From Archivesica marissinica (taxonomy: Eukaryota > Mollusca > Bivalvia > Venerida > Vesicomyidae), in assembly GCA_014843695.1 (NCBI GenBank), contig CM026390.1, positions 56,909,010 to 56,973,009 of the forward strand: DNA of 64,000 nucleotides. The letters run 5' to 3'. Below, piece by piece: positions 1,637-48,959 of the stretch. Made by a program: the position numbers and the translations under genes. The notes beneath the pieces were generated by a model. It was not told where the DNA came from. It did not search any database and saw nothing but the letters and a program-made list of their open reading frames with translations. The first letter of the stretch is position 1. Every line of letters begins with the position of its first letter.

Positions 1637-1933
1637 GATATTAAGGCTCCAGACATCGAGGACAGCGCCAAGAAACGAGATGTGCAAGACGGAATTCTCG
1701 ATGAAAATATCAAAATAAAGCAGCTACCAGCAGAGATAAATAAAGATCAAGAGGAGAAAGCTGGTGGTGAGACTTTAGACAAAGGTATGCAAGAGGAAAA
1801 TGGTAAAGAGAAACAAAAAGAAGCAGAGGAAAAACAAGATGTGATCCTTGCTAAGCTGGAGGAACAGCAAATACGGCAAGAGAAACTGATACAAGAACAG
1901 AAAGAGATACTAGAACAGTTGAAGCAACATCAG
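1637..1933 (+). CDS. Penultimate exon of a coiled-coil protein gene (partial)
   Basis: A 99-codon internal exon bounded by a plausible acceptor (TGTCTACTGTAG before 1637) and a donor CAG|GTGCGA after 1933, phase 0 at both ends. It encodes a strongly charged Lys/Glu-rich segment that becomes a heptad-like coiled coil at the end (around LAKLEEQQIRQEKL and QEQKEILEQLKQHQ). The open frame continues smoothly into the exon at 7668, which begins EQKHDQ. Earlier exons would lie left of the window. I do not recognise the protein securely. The charged coil followed by a long low-complexity tail brings to mind the cytoplasmic C-terminus of SLC38A10-like transporters or a Golgi coiled-coil protein, but this is a guess from memory. 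The exon itself is well supported; the family is not. Confidence 0.75.
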
Positions 1934-1939
1934 GTGCGA

Positions 1940-4900
1940 CATACATGATCGTTACCATACATGACCATACATTAAACATAAACTATACATGATCATACAT
2001 TAAACATAAACTATACATAACCATACATTAAACACAAACAATACATGACCATACATTAAACACAAACCATACATAACCATACATTAAACACAAACCATAC
2101 ATGACTATACATTAAACACAAACCATGCATGATTATACATTAAACACAAACCATACATGATTATACATTAAACACAAACCATGCATGATTATACATTAAA
2201 CACAAACCATACATGACCATACATTAAACACAAACCATGCATGATTATACATTAAACACAAACCATACATAATCATACATTAAACACAACCATACATGAC
2301 CATACATTAAACACAAACTATACATGACCATACATTAAACACAAACCATGCATGATCATACAATAAACACAAACCATGCATGATTATACATAAACCATAC
2401 ATGATCATACAATAAACACAAACCATGCATGATTATACATAAACCATACATGATTATACATTAAACACAAACCATGCATGATTATACATAAACCATACAT
2501 GATCATACAATAAACACAAACCATGCATGATTATACATTAAACACAAACCATGCATGATTATACATAAACCATACATGATCATACAATAAACACAAACCA
2601 TGCATGATTATACATTAAACACAAACCATGCATGATCATACAATAAACACAAACCATGCATGACCATACATTAAACACAAACCATGCATGATCATACAAT
2701 AAACACAAACCATTCATGATTATACATTAAACACAAACCATGCATGATTATATATTAAACACACACAATACATGATCATACAATAAACACAAACCATACA
2801 TTAAACACAAACCATACATGATTATACATTAAACACAAACCATGCATGACCATACATTAAACACACACAATACATGATCATACAATAAACACAAACCATA
2901 CATTAAACACAAACCATACATGATTATACATTAAACACACACAATACATGATTATACATTAAACACACACAATACATGATCATACAATAAACACAAACCA
3001 TACATTAAACACAAACCATACATGATTATACATTAAACACACACAATACATGATTATACATTAAACACACACAATACATGATCATACAATAAACACAAAC
3101 CATACATTAAACACAAACCATGCATGATTATACATTAAACACAAACCATACATGATTATACATTAAACACACACAATACATGATTATACATTAAACACAC
3201 ACAATACATGATCATACAATACACAAACCATACATTAAACACAAACCATGCATGACCATACAATAAACACAAACCGTACATTAAACACTAACCATACATG
3301 ACTATACATTAAACACAAACCATTCATGATTATACATTAAACACTAACCATACATGATTATACATTAAACACAAACCATACATGATTATACATTAAACAC
3401 ACACAATACATGACCATACATTAAACACAAACCATTCATGATTATACATTAAACACAAACCATACATGATTATACATTAAACACAAACCATACATGATTA
3501 TACATTAAACACACACAATACATGACCATACATTAAACACAAACCATTCATATTATACATTAAACACAAACCATACATTATACAAACAAACCATAAAACA
3601 CAAACCAACATGATTATACATTAAACACAAACCATACATGACCATACATTAAACACACACAATACATGACCATACATTAAACACACACAATACATGACCA
3701 TACAATAAACACAAACCAACAAATACATTAAACACACACAATACATGACCATACATTAAACACACACAATACATGATCATACAATAAACACAAACCATAC
3801 ATTAAACACAAACCATACATGATTATACAATAAACACAAACCATACATGATTATACATTAAACACAAACCATGCATGACCATACATTAAACACACACAAT
3901 ACATGACCATACAATAAACACAAACCATACATTAAACACAAACCATACATGATTATACATTAAACACAAACCATACATGATTATACATTAAACACAAACC
4001 ATGCATGACCATACATTAAACACACACAATACATGACCATACAATAAACACAAACCATACATTAAACACAAACCATACATGATTATACATTAAACACAAA
4101 CCATACATGATTATACATTAAACACAAACCATGCATGACCATACATTAAACACACACAATACATGACCATACAATAAACACAAACCATACATTAAACACA
4201 AACCATACATGATTATACATTAAACACAAACCATACATGATTATACATTAAACACAAACCATGCATGACCATACATTAAACACACACAATACATGACCAT
4301 ACAATAAACACAAACCATACATTAAACACAAACCATACATGATTATACATTAAACACAAACCATGCATGATTATACATTAAACACAAACCATACATGATT
4401 ATACATTAAACACAAACCATACATGATCATACAATAAACACAAACCATGCATGATTATACATTAAACACAAACCATACATGATTATACATTAAACACACA
4501 CACTACATGACCATACATTAAACACAAACCATACATGATTATACATTAAACACAAACCATACATGATTATACATTAAACACACACAATACATGATCATAC
4601 AATAAACACAAACCATACATTAAACACTAACCATACATGATTATACATTAAACACAAACCATGCATGATCATACAATAAACACAAACCATGCATGACCAT
4701 ACATTAAACACAAACCATGCATGATTATACATTAAACACAAACCATGCATGATTATACATTAAACACACACAATACATGATCATACAATAAACACAAACC
4801 ATACATTAAACACAAACCATGCATGACCATACATTAAGCACTAACCATACATGATTATACATTAAACACAAACCATACATGATCATACAATAAACACAAA

Positions 4901-5295
4901 CCATACATTAAACACAAACCATACATGATTATACATTAAACACAAACCATACATGATTATACATTAAACACAAACCATGCATGAGTATACATTAAACACA
5001 AACCATGCATGATTATACATTAAACACAAACCATACATTAAACACAAACCATACATGATTATACATTAAACACAAACCATACATGAGTATACATTAAACA
5101 CACACAATACATGACCATACATTAAACACACACAATACATGACCATACATTAAACACACACAATACATGACCATACATTAAACACACACAATACATGACC
5201 ATACATTAAACACACACAATACATGACCATACAATAAACACAAACCATGCATGATTATACATTAAACACAAACCATGCATGATTATACATTAAAC
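1940..5295. repeat. 28-bp minisatellite filling the intron
   Basis: About 3.35 kb built from the modules CATACATTAAACACAAAC and CATACATGA(C/T)(C/T)AT, mostly with 28-bp spacing plus shortened and lengthened variants. The array begins within about ten bases of the splice donor at 1934. Between about 3870 and 4390 a 130-bp higher-order block recurs four times (the same variant order is seen at 3901, 4031, 4161 and 4291). It ends abruptly against the hAT-like terminus at 5296. Confidence 0.95.
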
Positions 5296-6939: not shown

Positions 6940-7372
6940 CCCGTAACCTGCCAACCAATGGAGTCCTACTTGAGTAGGTCACCTCAGCCAAATACCTTGG
7001 TGTGGATATCTCAAATAACATGTCGTGGGACACTCACATAAAAAGGTCAACTAAGAAAGCAAACCAAACATTAGGATTTCTACGTAGAAACCTCCAGGTC
7101 AAATCCGCACCCCTTAAGTCCATGACTTACCAGGCACTAGTGAGACTCCAGCTTGAATATGGCTCCGAGATCTGGTCGCCCCATACCCAAACATTGATTG
7201 ACCAAATTGAAGGTGTCCAGCGAAGAGCAGCCCATTGGATAAAGGATATCGTACCTCTAGTGTTACAGACATGCTACATTCCCTAAATCTACGCAGACTA
7301 GATCAACGGCGTATTGACAATAGGTTATCCCTTATGTATAAAATTAATAATGATCTTGTTGCTATTCCCATT
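6940..7372 (+). pseudogene. LINE reverse transcriptase C-terminal fragment, frameshifted
   Basis: The translation contains SAKYLGVDISNNMSWDTHI, TLGFLRRNL, LEYGSEIWSP and VQRRAAHWIK, the familiar thumb and C-terminal region of jockey/CR1-type non-LTR retrotransposon polymerases. Near 7240-7250 the frame must shift to continue as YRTSSVTDMLHSLNLRRLDQ and then NNDLVAI. There is also an in-frame stop just before VTSAKYLG. The coding similarity stops at about 7372, exactly where a 23-bp array begins. It lies in sense orientation within the intron of the coiled-coil gene and resembles the fragment at 39940. Confidence 0.85.
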
Positions 7373-7373
7373 T

Positions 7374-7648
7374 ATCCCAGATTGTACTCAAACCATATCC
7401 CAGATTGTACTCAAACCATATCTCAGATTGTACTCAAAACATATCCCAGATTGTACTCAAAACATATCCCAGATTGTACTCAAACCATATCCCAGAGTTG
7501 TACTCAAACCATATCCCAGATTGTACTCATAACATATCCCAGATTGTACTCAAACCATATCCCAGATTGTACTCAAACCATATCCCAGATTGTACTCAAA
7601 ACATATCCCAGATTGTACTCAAAACATATCCCAGATTGTACTCAAAAT
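7374..7648. repeat. 23-bp minisatellite next to a splice acceptor
   Basis: Twelve copies of a 23-bp unit (TCCCAGATTGTACTCAAA plus variable end). The last unit ends about 20 bp before the acceptor AG of the next exon (7666-7667), so the branch-point region of this intron would have to lie within or beside repeat units. The overlapping open frames here are artefacts. Confidence 0.95.
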
Positions 7649-19057: not shown

Positions 19058-19138
19058 TCATCCAAGGAATGTAGATATAAAAACACTAGTGTCAATATTC
19101 AATGTACCATGCCACCATCGGTCTGGAAAATATATGAT
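19058..19138 (-). CDS. JMJD8: JMJD8 exon 9 (terminal)
   Basis: 26 codons plus TGA; acceptor TTCTGTTTCAG. Starts IIYFPDRWWHG (distal His252) and ends FISTFLG. The 125-codon + strand frame at 18765-19142 is a shadow of this exon and its 3' UTR. Confidence 0.94.
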   Translation of the reverse strand: MIYFPDRWWHGTLNIDTSVFISTFLG

Positions 19139-22100
19139 CTGAAACAGAAATATTCAACATCTATAGTTATAGGACATAAAACAGAGTGCCAAGCTTACAT
19201 ACAATATATCAATAAGTTATAACTGGTCACCAGAGTACCAAGCTTACATACAATATATCAATAAGTTATAACTGGTCACCAGAGTACCAAGCTTACATAC
19301 AATATATCAATAAGTTATAACTGGTCACCAGAGTACCAAGCTTACATACAATATATCAATAAGTTATAACTGGTCACCAGAGTACCAAGCTTACATACAA
19401 TATATCAATAAGTTATAACTGGTCACCAGAGTACCAAGCTTACATACAATATATCAATAAGTTATAACTGGTCACCAGAGTACCAAGCTTACATACAATA
19501 TATCAATAAGTTATAACTGGTCACCAGAGTACCAAGCTTACATACAATATATCAATAAGTTATAACTGGTCACCAGAGTACCAAGCTTACATACAATATA
19601 TCAATAAGTTATAACTGGTCACCAGAGTACCAAGCTTACATACAATATATCAATAAGTTATAACTGGTCACCAGAGTACCAAGCTTACATACAATATATC
19701 AATAAGTTATAACTGGTCACCAGAGTACCAAACTTACATACAATATATCAATAAGTTATAACTGGTCACCAGAGTACCAAGCTTACATACAATATATCAA
19801 TAAGTTATAACTGGTCACCAGAGTACCAAGCTTACATACAATATGTCAATAAGTTATAACTGGTCACCAGATTACCTATCTTTGGTTCCTGCATATTATT
19901 GCTGCCCAGTGAGTATACATACAGTCTACATCTGTTATGTCAAAGTCGGTTATGTCGAATTCTCCGGTTATCTCGAAGTCGGATTAAAGTCCCGTTTCAG
20001 ACACTATCATTTTACATATAACTGGCTCCGTTTATAAATTTTGGTTATGTCAAAGTATTTTGCTCGGTCCGACGGAATTCGACATAGTGGTTGTAGACTG
20101 TACTCAGCTTGGAGCAACTAGCTATGTATACAGAATGCAGCATTTATATCCATATTACAATATTGAAACTTCCATACAAAATATGTCGATGCATCCATCT
20201 AATAACTGCTTACTAATGAGCACTGTACATAGTTGTATATGAGTAGTAAATTGATTCTACCAGTTCTCCTCCAATGACTGACAAATTGATGAATGATAAT
20301 AAGTATTGAAGAACTGATGTCCAGTGGAAGATGACATTTTCTCTGTCACTGCTTGAGTTGCATATTCCTCCGCGGTTGTACTTGTGTATTTTAGCTATTT
20401 TCTGACAATCATGAAGAGTTAATTATGAAGTAATATATTCTAATGAATTTGTTTAGTCTGTAGTTAATTTTGACAGTAAACAGAAACTAACTTGAAAATT
20501 ATACCGGAACCATTTCTTATAACGGACGTTAACATCAGTGGGTGTGCGGCTGTGTATTGTAGTGATATTTGTGTTTATTAGTGTAAGATAAGATTTTATT
20601 TCATCTCTGGCAAACATCATTCATGGAAATACAAATTTCGGTCACCATTCGATGAAATAAAATATCCTATCTTACACTAATAAAAACACATATCCTCTAA
20701 ATCTATAATGGTACATTCCAAGCTGCAATACCTACCTCTACTCAGTTAATGGTACATTCCAAAATTGGATTACCTACCTCGCCTTGGTTAATGGTACATT
20801 CTGAGATGGATTACCTACCTCTCCTCAGTTAATGGTACATTCCAAGATGGGATTACCTACCTTGCCTTGGTTAATGGTACATTCCAAGATGGGATTACCT
20901 ACCTCTCCTTGGTTAATGGAACATTCTGAGATGGATTACCTACCTCTCCTCAGTTAATGGTACATTCCAAGATGGGATTACCTACCTTGCCTTGGTTAAT
21001 GGTACATTCCAATATGGGATTACCTACCTCGCCTTGGTTAATGGTACATTCCAAGATGGGATTACCTACCTCTCCTCAGTTAATGGTACATTCCAAGATG
21101 GGATTACCTACCTCCCTTGGTTAATGGTACATTCCAAGATGGGATTACCTACCTCTCCTTGGTTAATGGTACATTCCAAGATGGGATTACCTACCTCGCC
21201 TTGGTTAATGGTACATTCCAATATGGGATTACCTACCTTGCCTTGGTTAATGGTACATTCCAAGATGGGATTACCTACCTCTCCTTGGTTAATGGAACAT
21301 TCCAAGATGGGATTACCTACCTCACCTTGGTTAATGGTACATTCCAATATGGGATTACCTACCTCTCCTTGGTTAATGGTACATTCCAAGATGGGATTAC
21401 CTACCTCGCCTTGGTTAATGGTACATTCCAAGCTGCAATACCTACCTCTCCTCAGTTAATGGTACATTCCAAAATTGGATTACCTACCTCGCCTTGGTTA
21501 ATGGTACATTCTGAGATGGATTACCTACCTCTCCTCAGTTAATGGTACATTCCAAGATGGGATTACCTACCTCTCCTTGGTTAATGGTACATTCCAATAT
21601 GGGATTACCTACCTTGCCTTGGTTAATGGTACATTCCAAGATGGGATTACCTACCTCGCCTTGGTTAAGGTACATCCAAGATGTACCTACCTCCCTGTTA
21701 ATGGTACATTCCAAGATGGGATTACCTACCTCGCCTTGGTTAATGGTACATTCCAAGCTGCAATACCTACCTCTCCTCAGTTAATGGTACATTCCAAGAT
21801 GGGATTACCTACCTTGCCTTGGTTAATGGTACATTCCAAGATGGGATTACCTACCTCGCCTTGGTTAATGGTACATTCCAAGATGGGATTACCTACCTCG
21901 CCTTGGTTAATGGTACATTCCAAGATGGGATTACCTACCTCGCTTGGTAATGGTACATTCAGTGATACCACTCCTGTTAATGTACGGATTACCTACCTCC
22001 TTGGTTAATGGTACATTCCAAGATGGGATTACCTACCTCTCCTCAGTTAATGGTACATTCCAAGATGGGATTACCTACCTTGCCTTGGTTAATGGTACAT

Positions 22101-25100
22101 TCCAATATGGGATTACCTACCTCGCCTTGGTTAATGGTACATTCCAAGATGGGATTACCTACCTCTCCTTGGTTAATGGTACATTCCAATATGGGATTAC
22201 CTACCTCGCCTTGGTTAATGGTACATTCCAAGATGGGATTACCTACCTCTCCTTGGTTAATGTACATTCCAGATGATACCTACCCCTGTTAATGGTACAT
22301 TCCAAGATGGGATTACCTACCTCGCCTTGGTTAATGGTACATTCCAATATGGGATTACCTACCTCTCCTTGGTTAATGGTACATTCCAAGATGGGATTAC
22401 CTACCTCTCCTTGGTTAATGGTACATTCCAATATGGGATTACCTACCTCTCCTTGGTTAATGGTACATTCCAAGATGGGATTACCTACCTCTCCTTGGTT
22501 AATGGTACATTCCAAGATGGGATTACCTACCTCGCCTTGGTTAATGGTACATTCCAATGGTTTATCAGATGGATGTAAATTATGATATTCTTCCATCAGC
22601 CAGTGAAGTGTAGTTTTGTCAGGGTTGAATGCAGGCTGTTTATCCGGAGGGTACATAAACCAGCGCTGGTGATACAAAAATAAATATGCATACACAATAT
22701 TAGTATAATTGCAATGAGCGTTCTAAAAAATTTCAAAAATAAATAGCAAGCAGGCAGGTTACCTAGCAACACCTTTCCTGGGCAGGCTGCAGCGGTTAAC
22801 CAGTACTAAGTGTGCCAACCTCCATAAAAAACTGCCAACATTTTCATATAAATAGAACCAGTGACCATCAGTGATGATAGGTTAGAGTGGTATACAAGTC
22901 AGCGACCGTAACCATGCGACCACGGAGGCAGATATATTACCCTAGATGTTCTGAAACTACCCTAGATGTTCTGAAACTACTCTAGATGCTCTGAAACTAC
23001 CCTAGATGCTCTGAAACTACTATAGATGCTCTGAAACTACCATAGATGCTCTGAAACTACTCTAGATGCTCTGAAACTACCCTAGATGTTCTGAAACTAC
23101 TCTAGATGTTCTGAAACTACCCTAGATGATCTGAAACTACCCCAGATGCTCTGAAACTACTCTAGATGCTCTGAAACTACCCTAGATGCTCTGAAACTAT
23201 CCTAGATGCTCTGAAACTACCCTAGATGTTCTGAAACTACCCTAGATGCTCTGAAACTACCCTAGATGTTCTGAAACTACCCTAGATGCTCTGAAACTAC
23301 CCTAGATGCTCTGAAACTACAATAGATGCTCTGAAACTACTCTAGATGCTCTGAATCTACCCTAGATGCTCTGAAACTACCCTAGATGCTCTGAAACTAC
23401 TCTAGATGCTCTGAAACTACCCTAGATGCTCTGAAACTACCCTAGATGCTCTGAAACTACCCTAGATGCTCTGAAACTACCATATATGCTCTGAAACTAC
23501 CCTAGATGCTCTGAAACTACCCTAGATGCTCTGAAACTACCCTAGATGCTCTGAAACTACCCTAGATGCTCTGAAACTACCCTAGATGCTCTGAAACTAC
23601 TTAGATGCTCTGAAACTACTAGATGCTATGCTCTAAACCCCTAGATGCTCTGAAACTACCCTAGATGCTCTGAAACTACCCTAGATGCTCTGAAACTACC
23701 TAGCTCTGAATCTCATTTGAAAAGATGCTCTGAAACTACCCTAGATGCTCTGAAATTACCCTAGATGCTCTGAATCTCATCTAGATGTTTGAAACTACCC
23801 TAGATGCTCTGAAACTACCCTAGATGCTCTGAAACTACCATAGATGCTCTGAATCTAATCTATATGCTCTGAAACTACCCAGATGCTCTGAAACTACCAT
23901 AGATGCTCTGAAACTACTCTAGATGCTCTGAAACTACTCTTAGACAGAATTTAACCGAAGTAGGTCAGGATCATCGACTTTCACAAGGTTTGTTTGAGCA
24001 AAACAATGCAATTTCAGATTTTATACGCAATGAAGGATGTACAGACCGCGAAAACATATGACAGGAACTGTAGATCACCTTGACACTATTTGAATTGAAA
24101 CGGTAACACCGTACCAAATAAAGAATTCATTGTACAAATACTGGTTTACATATCAGAAACAAAAAGTATTAAACCAGATGTGTGTTTCAGGTACAATGGA
24201 TGAGAATAAATCAATTGGTATGCAGGGTTCATTCTAGGTCAGAATTTTTGGGAGAAGTGAGAAAGCGCGTGATCGCTTCCTTAAATGGTGTTCTTTAATA
24301 TACTTCTGCAAAATAGGGTTAAAATGCACAGTATAACCATTAAATACAACATTTGAATAGAAGGAGTGCTTTATAATGGGCCAGTGTATCTTACTAGACA
24401 ATATTTTGTTTGAAAATCATAAAAAGCCAAAAAAAAACAGCCCTCTAGAATGATCCCTGCCTGGTATGCAAATGTAGCACCACTATAATTACGTATTAGT
24501 ACACATACAGCAAAAACGTAAGTCTCCCCCAAGCACTCCACCAATATCGAGGTAGAATTATTCATCATTTACATTGTGTTACCTTTCTGCCAAAAATAAC
24601 TTCACCGAATCCTGGTCCATGGAAGTGAAAGGGTACCCCAGTCCCTGCAGCTGAGAACCAATAAAAATAATGTTAGGAATTGCTCACTTAAGTATTGTTT
24701 GCTTAGACTGGTGGCCATTAGTTGAATATCCAAGTATTGTTTGTTTATGGTCCTTAGTTGAATATCCAAGTATTGTTTGTTTATGGTCATTAGTTGAATA
24801 TCCAAGTATTGTTTGTTTATGGCCATTAGTTGAATATCCCAATTATTGTTTGTTTATGGTTCTAAGTTGAATATCCAAATAGTATTTGTCTATGGCCATT
24901 AGTTGAATATCCAAGTATTGTTTGTCTATGGCCATTAGTTGAATATCCAAGTATTGTTTGTCTATGGCCATTAGTTGAATATCCAAGTATTGTTTGTTTA
25001 TGGTCCGTAGTTGAATATACAAGTATTGTTTGTTTATGGTCCGTAGTTGAATATACAAGTATTGTTTGTTTATGGTCCGTAGTTGAATATACAAGTATTG

Positions 25101-28100
25101 TTTGTTTATGGTCCATAGTTGAATACACAAGTATTGTTTGTTTATGGTACTTAGTTGAATATCCAAGTATTGTTTGTTTATGGTCCTTAGTTGAATACCC
25201 AAGAATTGTTGCATAGACTGATGGCCCTGTTTTGACTACCCATCGGGCAAGTATTGTTCGGGAAGATAACACCTAGGCTATGCTATCATCATTGCCTACT
25301 TGAATACTCATGCAATTGTGTACAAAACATTAATCTTAGCAATTCTAAGATAGAACTTTATGTTAACGTAACACTAGTTGGATAACCAATGGCGCAATGG
25401 TGTCGAGTGGCGGATCAATGGTCCAGTGGTGTCGAGTGGCGGATCAATGGTCCAGTGGTGTCGAATCAATGGTCCAGTGGTGTCGAGTGGCGGATCAATG
25501 GTCCAGTGGTGTCGAGTGGCGGATCAATGGTCCAGTGGTGTCGAGTGGCGGATCAATGGTCCAGTGGTGTCGAGTGGCGGATCAATGGTCCAGTGGTGTC
25601 GAGTGGCGGATCAATGGTCCAGTGGTGTCGAATCAATGGTCCAGTGGTGTCGAGTGGCGGATCAATGGTCCAGTGGTGTCGAGTGGCGGATCAATGGTCC
25701 AGTGGTGTCGAGTGGCGGATCAATGGTCCAGTGGTGTCGAGTGGCGGATCAATGGTCCAGTGGTGTCGAGTGGCGGATCAATGGTCCAGTGGTGTCGAGT
25801 GGCGGATCAATGGTCCAGTGGTGTCGAGTGGCGGATCAATGGTCCAGTGGTGTCGAGTGGCGGATCAATGGTCCAGTGGTGTCGAGTGGCGGATCAATGG
25901 TCCAGTGGTGTCGAGTGGTGGATCAATGGTCCAGTGGTGTCGAGTGGCGGATCAATGGTCCAGTGGTGTCGAGTGGCGGATCAATGGTCCAGTGGTTAAC
26001 ACATTCGACTACATATCCATCCCACCATAATAATATTCCACTTTCGGATGGGATTAAAAAACAAGGTCCTGTGTATTGGTGATATGCTCCGGGTATGTAA
26101 GACAAGCCAGAAATGCTTCCGAACTTGCACTATCCTTCAAACGTCCTCCAAAGTGTAAAATGACTAAATGTGTAAACTCAAATACACCTAACTATATATA
26201 GCACACACCTGCTAGTCCGAAGCTGTAAATGCACCTAACTATATATAGCACACACCTGCTAGTCCGAAGCTGTAAATGCACCTAACTATATATAGCACAC
26301 ACCTGCTAGTCCGAAGCTGTAAATGCACCTAACTATATATAGCACACACCTGCTAGTCCGAAGCTGTAAATGCCATGCAGGTTTGGCAATCTGTACGGTG
26401 GTGGCTTGTATTCATCAAATAGTACATGGAAATCTTCATGATCATTATCTCCAAACCAATAAAACGTTTCTGAAATCAGTGTTATATCCATTTTACAAAG
26501 AAAACAATACCGGTATTTAATGCTAGTTATTTTTAGGGTAGTCGGTATTGCTAGAATCCTAGTTATATATATGTATACATTTTTATTTATATTTCCATAT
26601 ATTATTGTCATGTGTAAATGTTTAAATTTGCATCTGTAATGGTAAAAGCGCAATAGAATAACTTTAATTTTTGCGCTATATAAATGCTATGTATTTGTAT
26701 TATTGCCGCAGGTGTAGCTGATGTATGCTTACAAACTTTTAAACATACACAATTTATAATGTAATAGTGTTTCAAATTAAGAAATAATATCTGTTTTTCA
26801 GTTATTTATTGGTACATAAAACATGGTTTGAGGAATTAACCAAGTAGGCATACGGTGCGGAGAACGACAAACCATGTTTTATTTGACCATAAATAACGCA
26901 AATATTAATTTGATTCTAACATGACCAAAATATCTAACTGTGTGAATAACATCACAAAACTACAAAAATGTTAGTAAAATGAGGCCATGTTTGACGTCCC
27001 TTACTAAACAATGTTTTATTGCAGATTTAAACATGGTAAATTCCTTCTTTGCATATACAGACAAAATGCTGAGTCATGTTAGAATTCTATATAAATTTGA
27101 GACGTAATATCAATATTGACAAGGAAGCAACAATCTTAGTAATATTACCAAGACAAATGCCTGTCACAAGCCCTCCCTATGTCTGCCTTGGGGGCGAGCT
27201 CAAGAGCATGGAAATTGGACATTATTTATCCTACCAGTATATGTGCTATGTAATGCCATTGTTTATTTCCAGTATGAAATCTCACCATTTCCCATGGTAT
27301 CTAGCGTCTGTGGCTTCATTATCTCATTCACATATCGTGTTAACTTCACGTCTCCTGTAACACGAATACAACCACACATATTTACACGTTATATTCTATG
27401 CATGATTTATATTGAAGGCTTTGAAATATCCGTCTCAAACATGCAGCATAAACAACACACATTTATTTATTCATTACAAGAAACAAGATGCTACCACTGC
27501 GCCATCACGACTTCCACTGTAGGGTTTATTGTAGAGTGGAAAAAATGGCATGAAAAGGGGCAGGGTTGGTAAAAAAAATAAGGCAGATTTCATTTTGAGC
27601 TGTGAAGGGGATAAGTGCGGGAGGGAGGGGGTATTTGGGGGTTGCCCCCTACAACATTTTGCTAACTTACGGTGATTGACAGCTAATTATGCTTGATCAA
27701 AGAGTCAGTTGGGTGCTACATATCAATCAAAAGGGCAGACAAGTTCTAATTTATGTAGGTCTGCCCGCCAAAAAGGTTTTTAAAAAAAGGTTTAACGGGC
27801 GGGGCTAAAATGGCAGGACAGGGCGTCCTGTCATTCCGCTCTAGAAAAACCCTACATTGCGACAATGACTAAATTTTGACAATAAATATATGGGTCATTG
27901 CCCGGATACATCAGAACAAATGAAGAATATCAACCAATGGATGCTCCCTGAAATGTGTGTGTGACAGAAATACGTACTGTACGTACCACCCTGTATTGAT
28001 TCATTCAAACATAGACCCATGAAGCAGTACCAGCAAGAATCAAAAGACATTTTGTAGGTGGCAAGAATCAAAAGACATCTTGTAGGTGGCAAGAATCAAA

Positions 28101-31100
28101 AGACATCTTGTAGGTGGCAAGAATCAAAATACATCTTGTAGGTGGCATGAATCAAAAGACATCTTGTAGGTGGCAAGAATCAAAAGACATCTTGTAGGTG
28201 GCATGAATCAAAAGACATCTTGTAGGTGGCATGAATCAAAAGACATCTTGTAGGTGGCAAGAATCAAAAGACATCTTGTAGGTGGCATGAATCAAAAGAC
28301 ATCTTGTAGGTGGCAGGTAGCAAGACATATTGTAGGTGGCAAGAAGCAAGACATCTTGTAGGTGGCAAGAATCAAAAGACATCTTGTAGGTGGCAAGAAG
28401 CAAAAGACATATTGTAGGTGGCAAGAAACAAAGTACATCTTGTAGGTGGCAAGAATCAAAAGACATATTGTAGGTGGCAAGAAACAAAGTACATCTTGTA
28501 GGTGGCAAGAATCAAAGTACATCTTGTAGGTGGCAAGAAGCAAGACATTGTGTAGGTGGCAAGAAACAAAAGACATATTGTAGGTGGCAAGAAACAAAAG
28601 ACATCTTGTAGGTGGCAAGAATCAAAGTACATCTTGTAGGTGGCAAGAATCAAAAGACATCTTGTAGGTGGCAAGAAACAAAAGATATCTTGTAGGTGGC
28701 AAGAAACAAAAGACATCTTGTAGGTGGCAAGAAACAAAAGATATCTTGTAGGTGGCAAGAAACAAAAGATATCTTGTAGGTGGCAAGAAACAAAAGACAT
28801 CTTGTAGGTGGCAAGAAGCAAGACATCTTGTAGGTGGCAAGAAACAAAAGACATCTTGTAGGTGGCAAGAATCAAAAGACATCTTGTAGGTGGCAAGAAT
28901 CAAAAGACATCTTGTAGGTGGCAAGAATCAAGACATCTTGTAGGTGGCAAGAAACAAGACATCTTGTAGGTGGCAAGAAACAAAAGACATCTTGTAGGTG
29001 GCAAGAAACAAGACATCTTGTAGGTGGCAAGAAACAAGACATCTTGTAGGTGGCAAGAAACAAAAGACATCTTGTAGGTGGCAAGAATCAAAGTACATAT
29101 TGTAGGTGGCAAGAAACAAAAGACATCTTGTAGGTGGCAAGAGGCAAAAGACATCTTGTAGGTGGCAAGAGGCCATAGACATATTGTAGGTGGCAAGAAT
29201 CAAAAGACATCTTGTAGGTGGCAAGAAACAAAAGACATCTTGTAGGTGGCAAGAAACAAAAGACATCTTGTAGGTGGCAAGAATCAAAAGACATCTTGTA
29301 GGTGGCAAGAAACAAGACATCTTGTAGGTGGCAAGAAACAAAATACATCTTGTAGGTGGCAAGAAACAAAAGACATCTTGTAGGTGGCAAGATACAAAAG
29401 ACATCTTGTAGGTGGCAAGAATCAAGACATCTTGTAGGTGGCAAGAAACAAAAGACATCTTGTAGGTGGCAAGAACTCGCAGGCATATGAAAAGCTCACT
29501 CACTTTTGGTATAAGAGTGTGTGTTAGCAGAGCTCAGACGCACTGTTTTCTCTCCATACATCTGCATTAACGTTGATTTCTCACATAGTTTCTGAAACCC
29601 CTGCAAGTAAAGTAGCAATGAATAAACACAATAACCTAGTACTAGGAACATTTCAACATCTACACGTAAACATTGTCATAAGTGTGGGATCTATGTTCCA
29701 GTGGTACAGCACCGGATTTGATATCGAGAGGTTCCGGGTTCAATACTTGATGAAGGTATGGATTGAGAAACACACCTTATACTTAGTAATACCAACTGGT
29801 AGAACTGCCTAGCTGCTTAGGTTTGCTAAGTCAAATGAGGAAAACAATAATCATATTTGTATTTGGTAAATACATAAAAATGGGGCCACAACTGCACTAA
29901 GATTAGCAGCTAGCCACAGACTGAGAGAGTAACTATGGTAACAACTAGAATCTTAATTATCAATTAAAATACAAAAATCCACTAGTCCACGACCTTGAAG
30001 GCTCGATATAGTAATATAGAGATACATGTACTTACAGAGTTATCTGTAGCTCCCTTTATAATCACAGGCTTGTTAAATGCATAGCTGTAAATAAATTAAG
30101 GATACATTCAACTTTGATGAGACTGTTCGCTATCTTACCATGGCACAGTTAGCTACAGGTAGTACTAGGGTATGGTTTGGTAGAACTGAATAAGTGGTCT
30201 TGAAAAGAGGAGTTTAATGATATCGCAATATTTTTGACTGTACATCAATTTAATTTAAGCTTTATTTATAGAGTTTTTTATATACAAACAACTAACAATT
30301 TTTAGCATTATAGTTATTTAGTGACATATTATGTAGTATTCCCATAAAACCAGTCGACAACTCACTACATGTGCAATCATTTACATTCTTCAATAATTCA
30401 TAATAGATCATTTCCATAGATCACTTCAATAGATCACTTCAATAGATCACTTCCATAGATCACTTCCATAGATAACTTCAATAGATCATTGCTATAGATC
30501 ACTTCCATAGATCACTTCAATAGAGCACTTCCACAGATCACTTCAATAGATCACTTCCAACAGATCACTTCCATAGATCACTTCAATAGATCATTTCAAT
30601 AGATCACTTCCATAGATCACTTCCATAGATCACTTCCATAGATCACTTCCATAGATCACTTCCATAGATCATTTCCATAGATAACTTCAATAGATCATTG
30701 CTATAGATCACTTCCATAGATCACTTCTGTGACAACAAGGTAGAAAGCAAACTCGTACTTATCCTCAAACTGGCGTTGTGTTAGTGACTGTGTGCCAACA
30801 TCTACAACATCTATGTTGCATGGCCCTGCTTCAGCCAACATACTGCTGTCATCTGTCTCCCTGTTAACAGTTCAAATAGCACTTAATGTATTAAAAATTC
30901 AATCATTATTATTGCCATCTTGAAGTTTATATATTTCATAAAGGTTCTTATCAAGATGATCTGATGAGGATGCAGATAATATTAAGAAGGAACACTGATT
31001 GTACACCCATTTTATATACTGTCTGTAAATGTAGGTACACACATTTTATATACTGTCTGTAGGTACCCACATTATATATACTGTCTGTAGACACACACAT

Positions 31101-47959: not shown

Positions 47960-48959
47960 NNNNNNNNNNNNNNNNNNNNNNNNNNNNNNNNNNNNNNNNN
48001 NNNNNNNNNNNNNNNNNNNNNNNNNNNNNNNNNNNNNNNNNNNNNNNNNNNNNNNNNNNNNNNNNNNNNNNNNNNNNNNNNNNNNNNNNNNNNNNNNNNN
48101 NNNNNNNNNNNNNNNNNNNNNNNNNNNNNNNNNNNNNNNNNNNNNNNNNNNNNNNNNNNNNNNNNNNNNNNNNNNNNNNNNNNNNNNNNNNNNNNNNNNN
48201 NNNNNNNNNNNNNNNNNNNNNNNNNNNNNNNNNNNNNNNNNNNNNNNNNNNNNNNNNNNNNNNNNNNNNNNNNNNNNNNNNNNNNNNNNNNNNNNNNNNN
48301 NNNNNNNNNNNNNNNNNNNNNNNNNNNNNNNNNNNNNNNNNNNNNNNNNNNNNNNNNNNNNNNNNNNNNNNNNNNNNNNNNNNNNNNNNNNNNNNNNNNN
48401 NNNNNNNNNNNNNNNNNNNNNNNNNNNNNNNNNNNNNNNNNNNNNNNNNNNNNNNNNNNNNNNNNNNNNNNNNNNNNNNNNNNNNNNNNNNNNNNNNNNN
48501 NNNNNNNNNNNNNNNNNNNNNNNNNNNNNNNNNNNNNNNNNNNNNNNNNNNNNNNNNNNNNNNNNNNNNNNNNNNNNNNNNNNNNNNNNNNNNNNNNNNN
48601 NNNNNNNNNNNNNNNNNNNNNNNNNNNNNNNNNNNNNNNNNNNNNNNNNNNNNNNNNNNNNNNNNNNNNNNNNNNNNNNNNNNNNNNNNNNNNNNNNNNN
48701 NNNNNNNNNNNNNNNNNNNNNNNNNNNNNNNNNNNNNNNNNNNNNNNNNNNNNNNNNNNNNNNNNNNNNNNNNNNNNNNNNNNNNNNNNNNNNNNNNNNN
48801 NNNNNNNNNNNNNNNNNNNNNNNNNNNNNNNNNNNNNNNNNNNNNNNNNNNNNNNNNNNNNNNNNNNNNNNNNNNNNNNNNNNNNNNNNNNNNNNNNNNN
48901 NNNNNNNNNNNNNNNNNNNNNNNNNNNNNNNNNNNNNNNNNNNNNNNNNNNNNNNNNNN
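47960..48959. other. Assembly gap of exactly 1000 N
   Basis: The round length indicates a placeholder gap of unknown real size inside the satellite. Open frames of 368 codons spanning it are meaningless. Confidence 0.99.

Follow-up and report, generated by a model that had tools for sequence, protein, structure and literature searches.

The vesicomyid bivalve Archivesica marissinica carries, in its gene for the JmjC/cupin protein JMJD8, a 42-bp minisatellite in which the last bases of exon 8 and the first bases of intron 8 recur together, so that the 5' splice site (donor) of this exon is repeated dozens of times. We analysed this array within a window of 64,000 nucleotides (nt) from contig CM026390.1 (GenBank assembly GCA_014843695.1, forward-strand positions 56,909,010 to 56,973,009); the window is the whole of that stretch, and its numbering is used throughout. 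An earlier note, made from the letters and open reading frames of the window, had described the array as unusual and had proposed that it could act as a splice-site decoy or a source of exon-length variation. The array itself stands, while neither its singularity nor the proposed roles find support below.

JMJD8 and the array at its exon 8 donor

The JMJD8 exons and the parts of the array are as follows (a slash within a sequence marks the exon-intron boundary; TRF, Tandem Repeats Finder).

30759..30860, minus strand: JMJD8 exon 2; AG/GT junctions, open splice
30036..30084, minus strand: JMJD8 exon 3; AG/GT junctions, open splice
29504..29600, minus strand: JMJD8 exon 4; AG/GT junctions, open splice
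27286..27354, minus strand: JMJD8 exon 5; AG/GT junctions, open splice
26350..26469, minus strand: JMJD8 exon 6; AG/GT junctions, open splice
24583..24650, minus strand: JMJD8 exon 7; AG/GT junctions, open splice
22531..22665, minus strand: JMJD8 exon 8, 135 nt; AG acceptor, GT donor, open spliced frame
19058..19138, minus strand: JMJD8 exon 9, last coding exon, IIYFPDRWWHGTLNIDTSVFISTFLG and stop; AG/GT junctions, open splice
20706..22557, minus strand: 42-bp donor-spanning minisatellite, 45 units and a 16-nt stub; TRF, wrap-around alignment
22525..22530, minus strand: authentic 5' splice site GAG/GTAGGT, first of 44; GTAGGT count, splice junction
20730..22488, minus strand: 43 further GTAGGT sites (decoy donors); GTAGGT count

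Joined through the first donor of exon 8, exons 2 to 9 give 239 open codons ending in FLG-stop, with AG and GT present at all internal junctions; the counterpart in Mercenaria mercenaria JMJD8, from ETDD to the protein end, is also 239 residues long. Exon 1 was not found in the window, and the exon numbering presumes that one exists. The Mercenaria protein was the top match of a 194-residue join (70% identity, E 2.8e-100; best 120 of 631 matches), identity rising to 83% over the 47 codons that cover exon 8, and exons 4 and 6-9, joined to 166 residues, scored above the cut-off for PF13621 and PF08007 (Cupin_8, JmjC_2). Judged by homology over the conserved region and by family profile, the gene is JMJD8. 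Both the gene and the exon 8 assignment of the earlier note are thus borne out by the uninterrupted splice and the Mercenaria match, and the start that it gave for exon 9, position 19138, is a junction in the open splice.

The minisatellite at the exon 8 junction was recovered by TRF, in two rows (20706-21960 and 21986-22557) and a further 126-bp higher-order row spanning the whole array, and by wrap-around alignment. As first described, each unit comprises the last 27 nt of exon 8, which encode LECTINQGE, and the first 15 nt of intron 8 with its GT. The exon truly ends within unit 1 (22557-22516), whose 27 exonic nt at 22531-22557 are followed by GTAGGTAATCCCATC. The original span of 20709-22665 takes in the array and exon 8 together, the array alone occupying 20706-22557. 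The original figure of about 44 units agrees with the number of GTAGGT sites, while the alignment gives 45 units and the stub. Deletions are absent from 31 of the 45 units and present, one or more, in the other 14 (only 24 nt are left of unit 15); they cluster at units 7-8, 14-16 and 22-23, no insertion being found in the wrap-around alignment. Such clusters look like unpolished sequence, and the exact copy number is therefore uncertain.

The same clusters would be expected if the array had been collapsed, expanded or built from read errors during assembly, and a 1,000-N gap in a neighbouring 25-kb array points the same way. Against an artefact of this kind stand the 31 deletion-free units, which fall into 11 distinct types, together with the 126-bp higher-order period, and the presence of the same kind of array at other loci; we regard it as very improbable.

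In the ten orthologs compared, the copied exon part reads ECT...GE in nine and DCTINQGE in the remaining one. Since this part is conserved in other animals, the spread must have run from exon to intron and not in reverse. Within the array, substitutions fall in 51 cells of the 27 exon-derived columns and in 21 of the 15 intron-derived columns, showing no contrast and so no conservation of the copied exon part. A coding tandem repeat was rejected: TGA stands in the exon frame in 8 of 45 units, unit 13 being the first, and frameshifting deletions occur in others. A dispersed satellite was likewise rejected, all 22 matches listed for an 84-nt two-unit probe against the A. marissinica genome falling in the exon 8 array (repeat counts here are lower bounds).

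The dozens of near-identical donors noted earlier are present: with the authentic donor counted in, there are 44 GTAGGT sites, as GAG/GTAGGT (37), AAG/GTAGGT (six) and GGG/GTAGGT (one). Among the 43 decoys, 36 repeat the authentic context and one scores lower than the authentic donor, by the donor matrix on which all donor and acceptor calls and scores depend. When exon 8 is ended at each of the 44 donors in turn and joined to exon 9, the frame survives in the assembled sequence from donors 1-6 only, which add zero to five copies of a 14-residue insert (VGNPILECTINQGE). The remaining 38, donors 7-44, lose it and lead to a premature or shifted stop. The product of the first donor matches the length of the ortholog, and on this ground the first donor is in all likelihood the one used, as a best inference and not a demonstration.

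Junction-spanning arrays elsewhere in the genome

JMJD8 holds a second array of this kind, at exon 6.

26180..26373, minus strand: donor-spanning array, 47 bp x 4.1, 99% matches; TRF, donor contexts

Its unit joins about 24 nt of exon 6 to 23 nt of intron and carries the donor CAG/GTGTGT in all four units. To estimate how frequent such arrays are in this 1.54-Gb genome, exons were sampled from three unrelated families: the best 30 of 74 myosin-head matches, the best 30 of 57 TCP1 chaperonin matches and, from 125 kinesin matches, the 26 left of the first 28 once two apparent duplicates had been skipped. From these 86 loci 16 were dropped, eight as apparent copies by their scores and splice contexts and eight for having no clear or internal donor (L012, L067, L071, L072, L073, L076, L080 and L086). 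The resulting 70 donors include seven placed by hand after reading and both of the similar paralogs L018 and L022. Array edges are those set by TRF, arrays were accepted at 2.5 copies or more and a score of 100, and the tests were picked after the first loci had been seen. Seven loci stand outside all counts: L075, chosen for its repeated-looking matches, and L039-L044, chosen for long open frames.

Arrays span 6 of the 70 sampled donors and none of 63 acceptors (Fisher p = 0.029); without the marginal case L074 the figures are 5 of 70 and 0 of 63 (p = 0.06).

L017: donor-spanning, 96 bp, 3 units; GT kept in 1 of 3
L031: donor-spanning, 35 bp, 7 units; GT kept in 6 of 7
L051: donor-spanning, 42 bp, 26 units; GT kept in 26 of 26
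L069: donor-spanning, 76 bp, 10 units; GT kept in 10 of 10
L088: donor-spanning, 58 bp, 7 units; GT kept in 7 of 7
L074: marginal (2 exon nt in the unit), 31 bp, 25 units; GT kept in 26 of 26 by reading contexts

Small as it is, the sample suggests that donor-spanning arrays are not rare in this genome. With a second array in the same gene, six sampled donors spanned elsewhere and comparable 'mirages' known from amphioxus, the JMJD8 array is not, as had been supposed, unusual in kind. Acceptor forms exist too, since the kinesin gene at L075 (G000:C6:90884200-90885299) has an acceptor-spanning array of six 113-bp units, in three of which AG has become AT. The acceptor of L032 was rejected as a spanned one, the array ending at 1503, 19 nt short of the true acceptor at 1522.

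Among the unit lengths of all eight donor-spanning arrays (42, 47, 96, 35, 42, 76, 58 and 31), three are multiples of three, as by chance. Their lack of preference for such multiples does not favour any frame-keeping use of the copies, and selection for in-frame units was rejected on the same count. This bears on the proposal that protein variants arise from the array, with donors 2-6 sometimes used to place one to five VGNPILECTINQGE copies before the strand that carries the WWHGT motif. The full reading frame kept from donors 1-6 is what this proposal predicts. A 42-bp unit would nevertheless be divisible by three with a one-in-three chance, the frame is lost at 38 of the 44 donors as assembled, the sister arrays show no corresponding preference, and none of 10 orthologs compared (from 631 matches) carries extra residues where exons 8 and 9 meet; we consider such a function improbable. 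The decoy and exon-length roles put forward in the earlier note would meet the same difficulties, with six of 44 donors in frame and three of eight periods divisible by three. Were the copies harmful, units without GT should spread; GT retention is high in most arrays, however, with L017 as the exception. Retention of GT and unit lengths both fit copies that would be silent, with splicing from the first donor.

The positions at which arrays start and end were compared with an expectation drawn from the density in deeper intron (22 starts in 61,377 bp, 0.36 per kb). Starts are in excess around the 70 donors, with 11 between -70 and +10 nt against 2.0 expected, and 12 between 0 and +100 nt against 2.5. 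On the acceptor side, 17 array ends lie between -165 and -25 against 5.7 expected and none between -25 and +70 against 3.9. This gap before the acceptor is not absolute, since L032 (19 nt; left out of the count) ends within it, as do L025 (2.0 copies) and L100 (2.3 copies), which end 6 and 4 nt before the acceptor and fall under the copy threshold. The pattern, from a small sample with program-defined edges and a test chosen after the first cases, fits a commoner birth of arrays at intron starts. It equally fits arrays that are born or creep near exons generally and are halted by selection, a few bases behind the donor and mostly some 25 or more before the acceptor. A broader proposition, that minisatellites are born or settle at intron starts, that a sizeable share of genes consequently carries rows of duplicated donors, and that splicing picks the first of these by position and not by sequence, is tentative and, on present evidence, rather less than an even prospect.

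Donor choice and known systems

In exon definition U1 and U2AF pair across an exon, and among competing sites the first transcribed may also be the first bound. We interpret the array with considerable confidence as a minisatellite of the 'mirage' type, a duplicated exon 8/intron 8 junction of which the first donor would be used and the copies silent. Some 42 bp that chanced to span the junction would have been tandemly duplicated, and the copies would then have multiplied and been homogenised within the intron through unequal exchange or slippage, as the unit types and the 126-bp period suggest. The first copy remains the exon end and all later ones are intronic. U1 and U2AF would pair across the 135-nt exon at the donor transcribed first, leaving the 43 copies behind it to be removed silently with the intron. 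Donor-spanning arrays may be tolerated precisely because the duplication leaves the exon and its first donor intact.

Several observations weigh against silence of the copies. Of the two donors at DOK7 intron 4, splicing prefers the downstream, intron-proximal one, which is also the stronger, and sites so placed are said to be favoured by SRSF1 (PMC5585400); in JMJD8 this preference would select the wrong site. Given that preference, silence of the 43 downstream copies would require a positional rule to hold in JMJD8, for instance exon definition or binding in the order of transcription. The six AAG/GTAGGT decoys outscore the authentic donor by the donor matrix used. Use of donors 2-6 would leave the frame intact and add 14 residues per copy, which could yield minor isoforms. 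The frameshift that would silence donors 7 onward first arises at unit 7, inside a patch that may be sequence error. Finally, GT is lost in two of three L017 units and AG in three of six L075 units, and decoys could thus sometimes be harmful.

The array might alternatively serve as a bank of U1 sites, restraining premature polyadenylation in intron 8 or setting the level of JMJD8 through unproductive splicing. The 43 donor-like sites do precede two AATAAA hexamers, at 20600 and 20579 (a raw count in 3,392 nt), but arrays of other units fill the window, in which 44,513 of 64,000 bp, or 19,269 of 38,756 bp outside the 25-kb array, lie within 22 merged TRF arrays. A role of this kind seems to us a slender prospect.

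The closest parallel to a mirage-type origin of the JMJD8 array is found in amphioxus, where 'mirages' are minisatellite-like tandem duplications spanning an exon-intron boundary (PMC3087553). The genes concerned are Adh3, the globins BflGb6 and BflGb9, TnC (troponin C) and PGBD5 (PMC3087553, PMC3902484), the second paper adding PGBD5 and troponin C. The splice signal survives in many of the units, arrays are found in a donor as well as an acceptor form, splicing is reported as regular, with PMC3902484 saying likewise for Adh and troponin C, and the phenomenon is described as maybe general in cephalochordates. The JMJD8 units similarly span the boundary (27 + 15 nt, 45 units) and keep the splice signal, with 44 GTAGGT sites in 45 units. 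On these features the array is of the same kind as the amphioxus mirages, real and of high copy number. It differs in its host, a mollusc and not a cephalochordate, and in its 45 units, compared with six and three in the two haplotypes reported for BflGb6; the frequency estimate of 6 in 70 sampled donors is a further difference.

Duplication across an intron-exon boundary has also been linked to intron gain, in a new intron of potato (PMC4974935) and in the model of Rogers cited in PMC3087553. There too the duplicated stretch holds a splice signal or crosses the boundary, whereas JMJD8 has no sign of a new intron, only altered intron content (intron positions in relatives were not checked). 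The likeness to competing 5' splice sites, as in DOK7 intron 4 (PMC5585400), is that several donors could compete for U1 before a single acceptor; JMJD8 has 44 sites from one array in place of two, the extra ones being potential donors.

No molluscan mirage appeared in the literature searched (titles and the beginnings of abstracts, mostly without subscription papers), nor in the available portions of PMC3862624 and PMC5405514, two papers with mollusc and repeat terms. As far as that literature shows, mirages are little studied, and the host group and the frequency estimate are new.

Choice of a 5' splice site is usually tested with two or three competing donors. JMJD8 offers 44 natural ones, 37 with an identical nine-base site, of which the right one would be the first, and the spliceosome should face a choice among dozens of near-identical sites. 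Such a row makes the relative weight of position and sequence in donor choice directly testable. If the sampled frequency is true, the genome would hold many natural experiments of this sort. They would offer material from which exon ends could change and introns arise, and would also be a pitfall for gene prediction and assembly. How often such arrays seem to occur in this genome is the aspect worth following.

Other repeats in the window

Three further features lie in or beside JMJD8 introns.

20564..20694, no strand assigned: inverted repeat, 34-nt arms, 88% complementary, resembling a miniature inverted-repeat transposable element by look; adjoins the distal end of the exon 8 array (adjacency only)
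28033-29475: 28-bp array, beginning 28 nt behind the exon 4 donor
30403-30727: 13-bp array, beginning 31 nt behind the exon 2 donor

At the left of the window, a coding-like segment at 1637-1933 (plus strand) has a possible donor GT at 1934, and a 3.3-kb array (1954-5295) starts 20 nt later; the left-hand coding-like segments, this one included, gave no Pfam match. An open stretch at 6978-7283 (plus strand) resembles a reverse transcriptase of the non-LTR (non-long-terminal-repeat) type by eye, gave no Pfam match, and is followed shortly by a 23-bp array (7373-7646). The largest array, at 36395-61393, comprises about 614 copies of a 41-bp unit over 25 kb, interrupted by the 1,000-N gap at 47960-48959, and may be located in JMJD8 intron 1.

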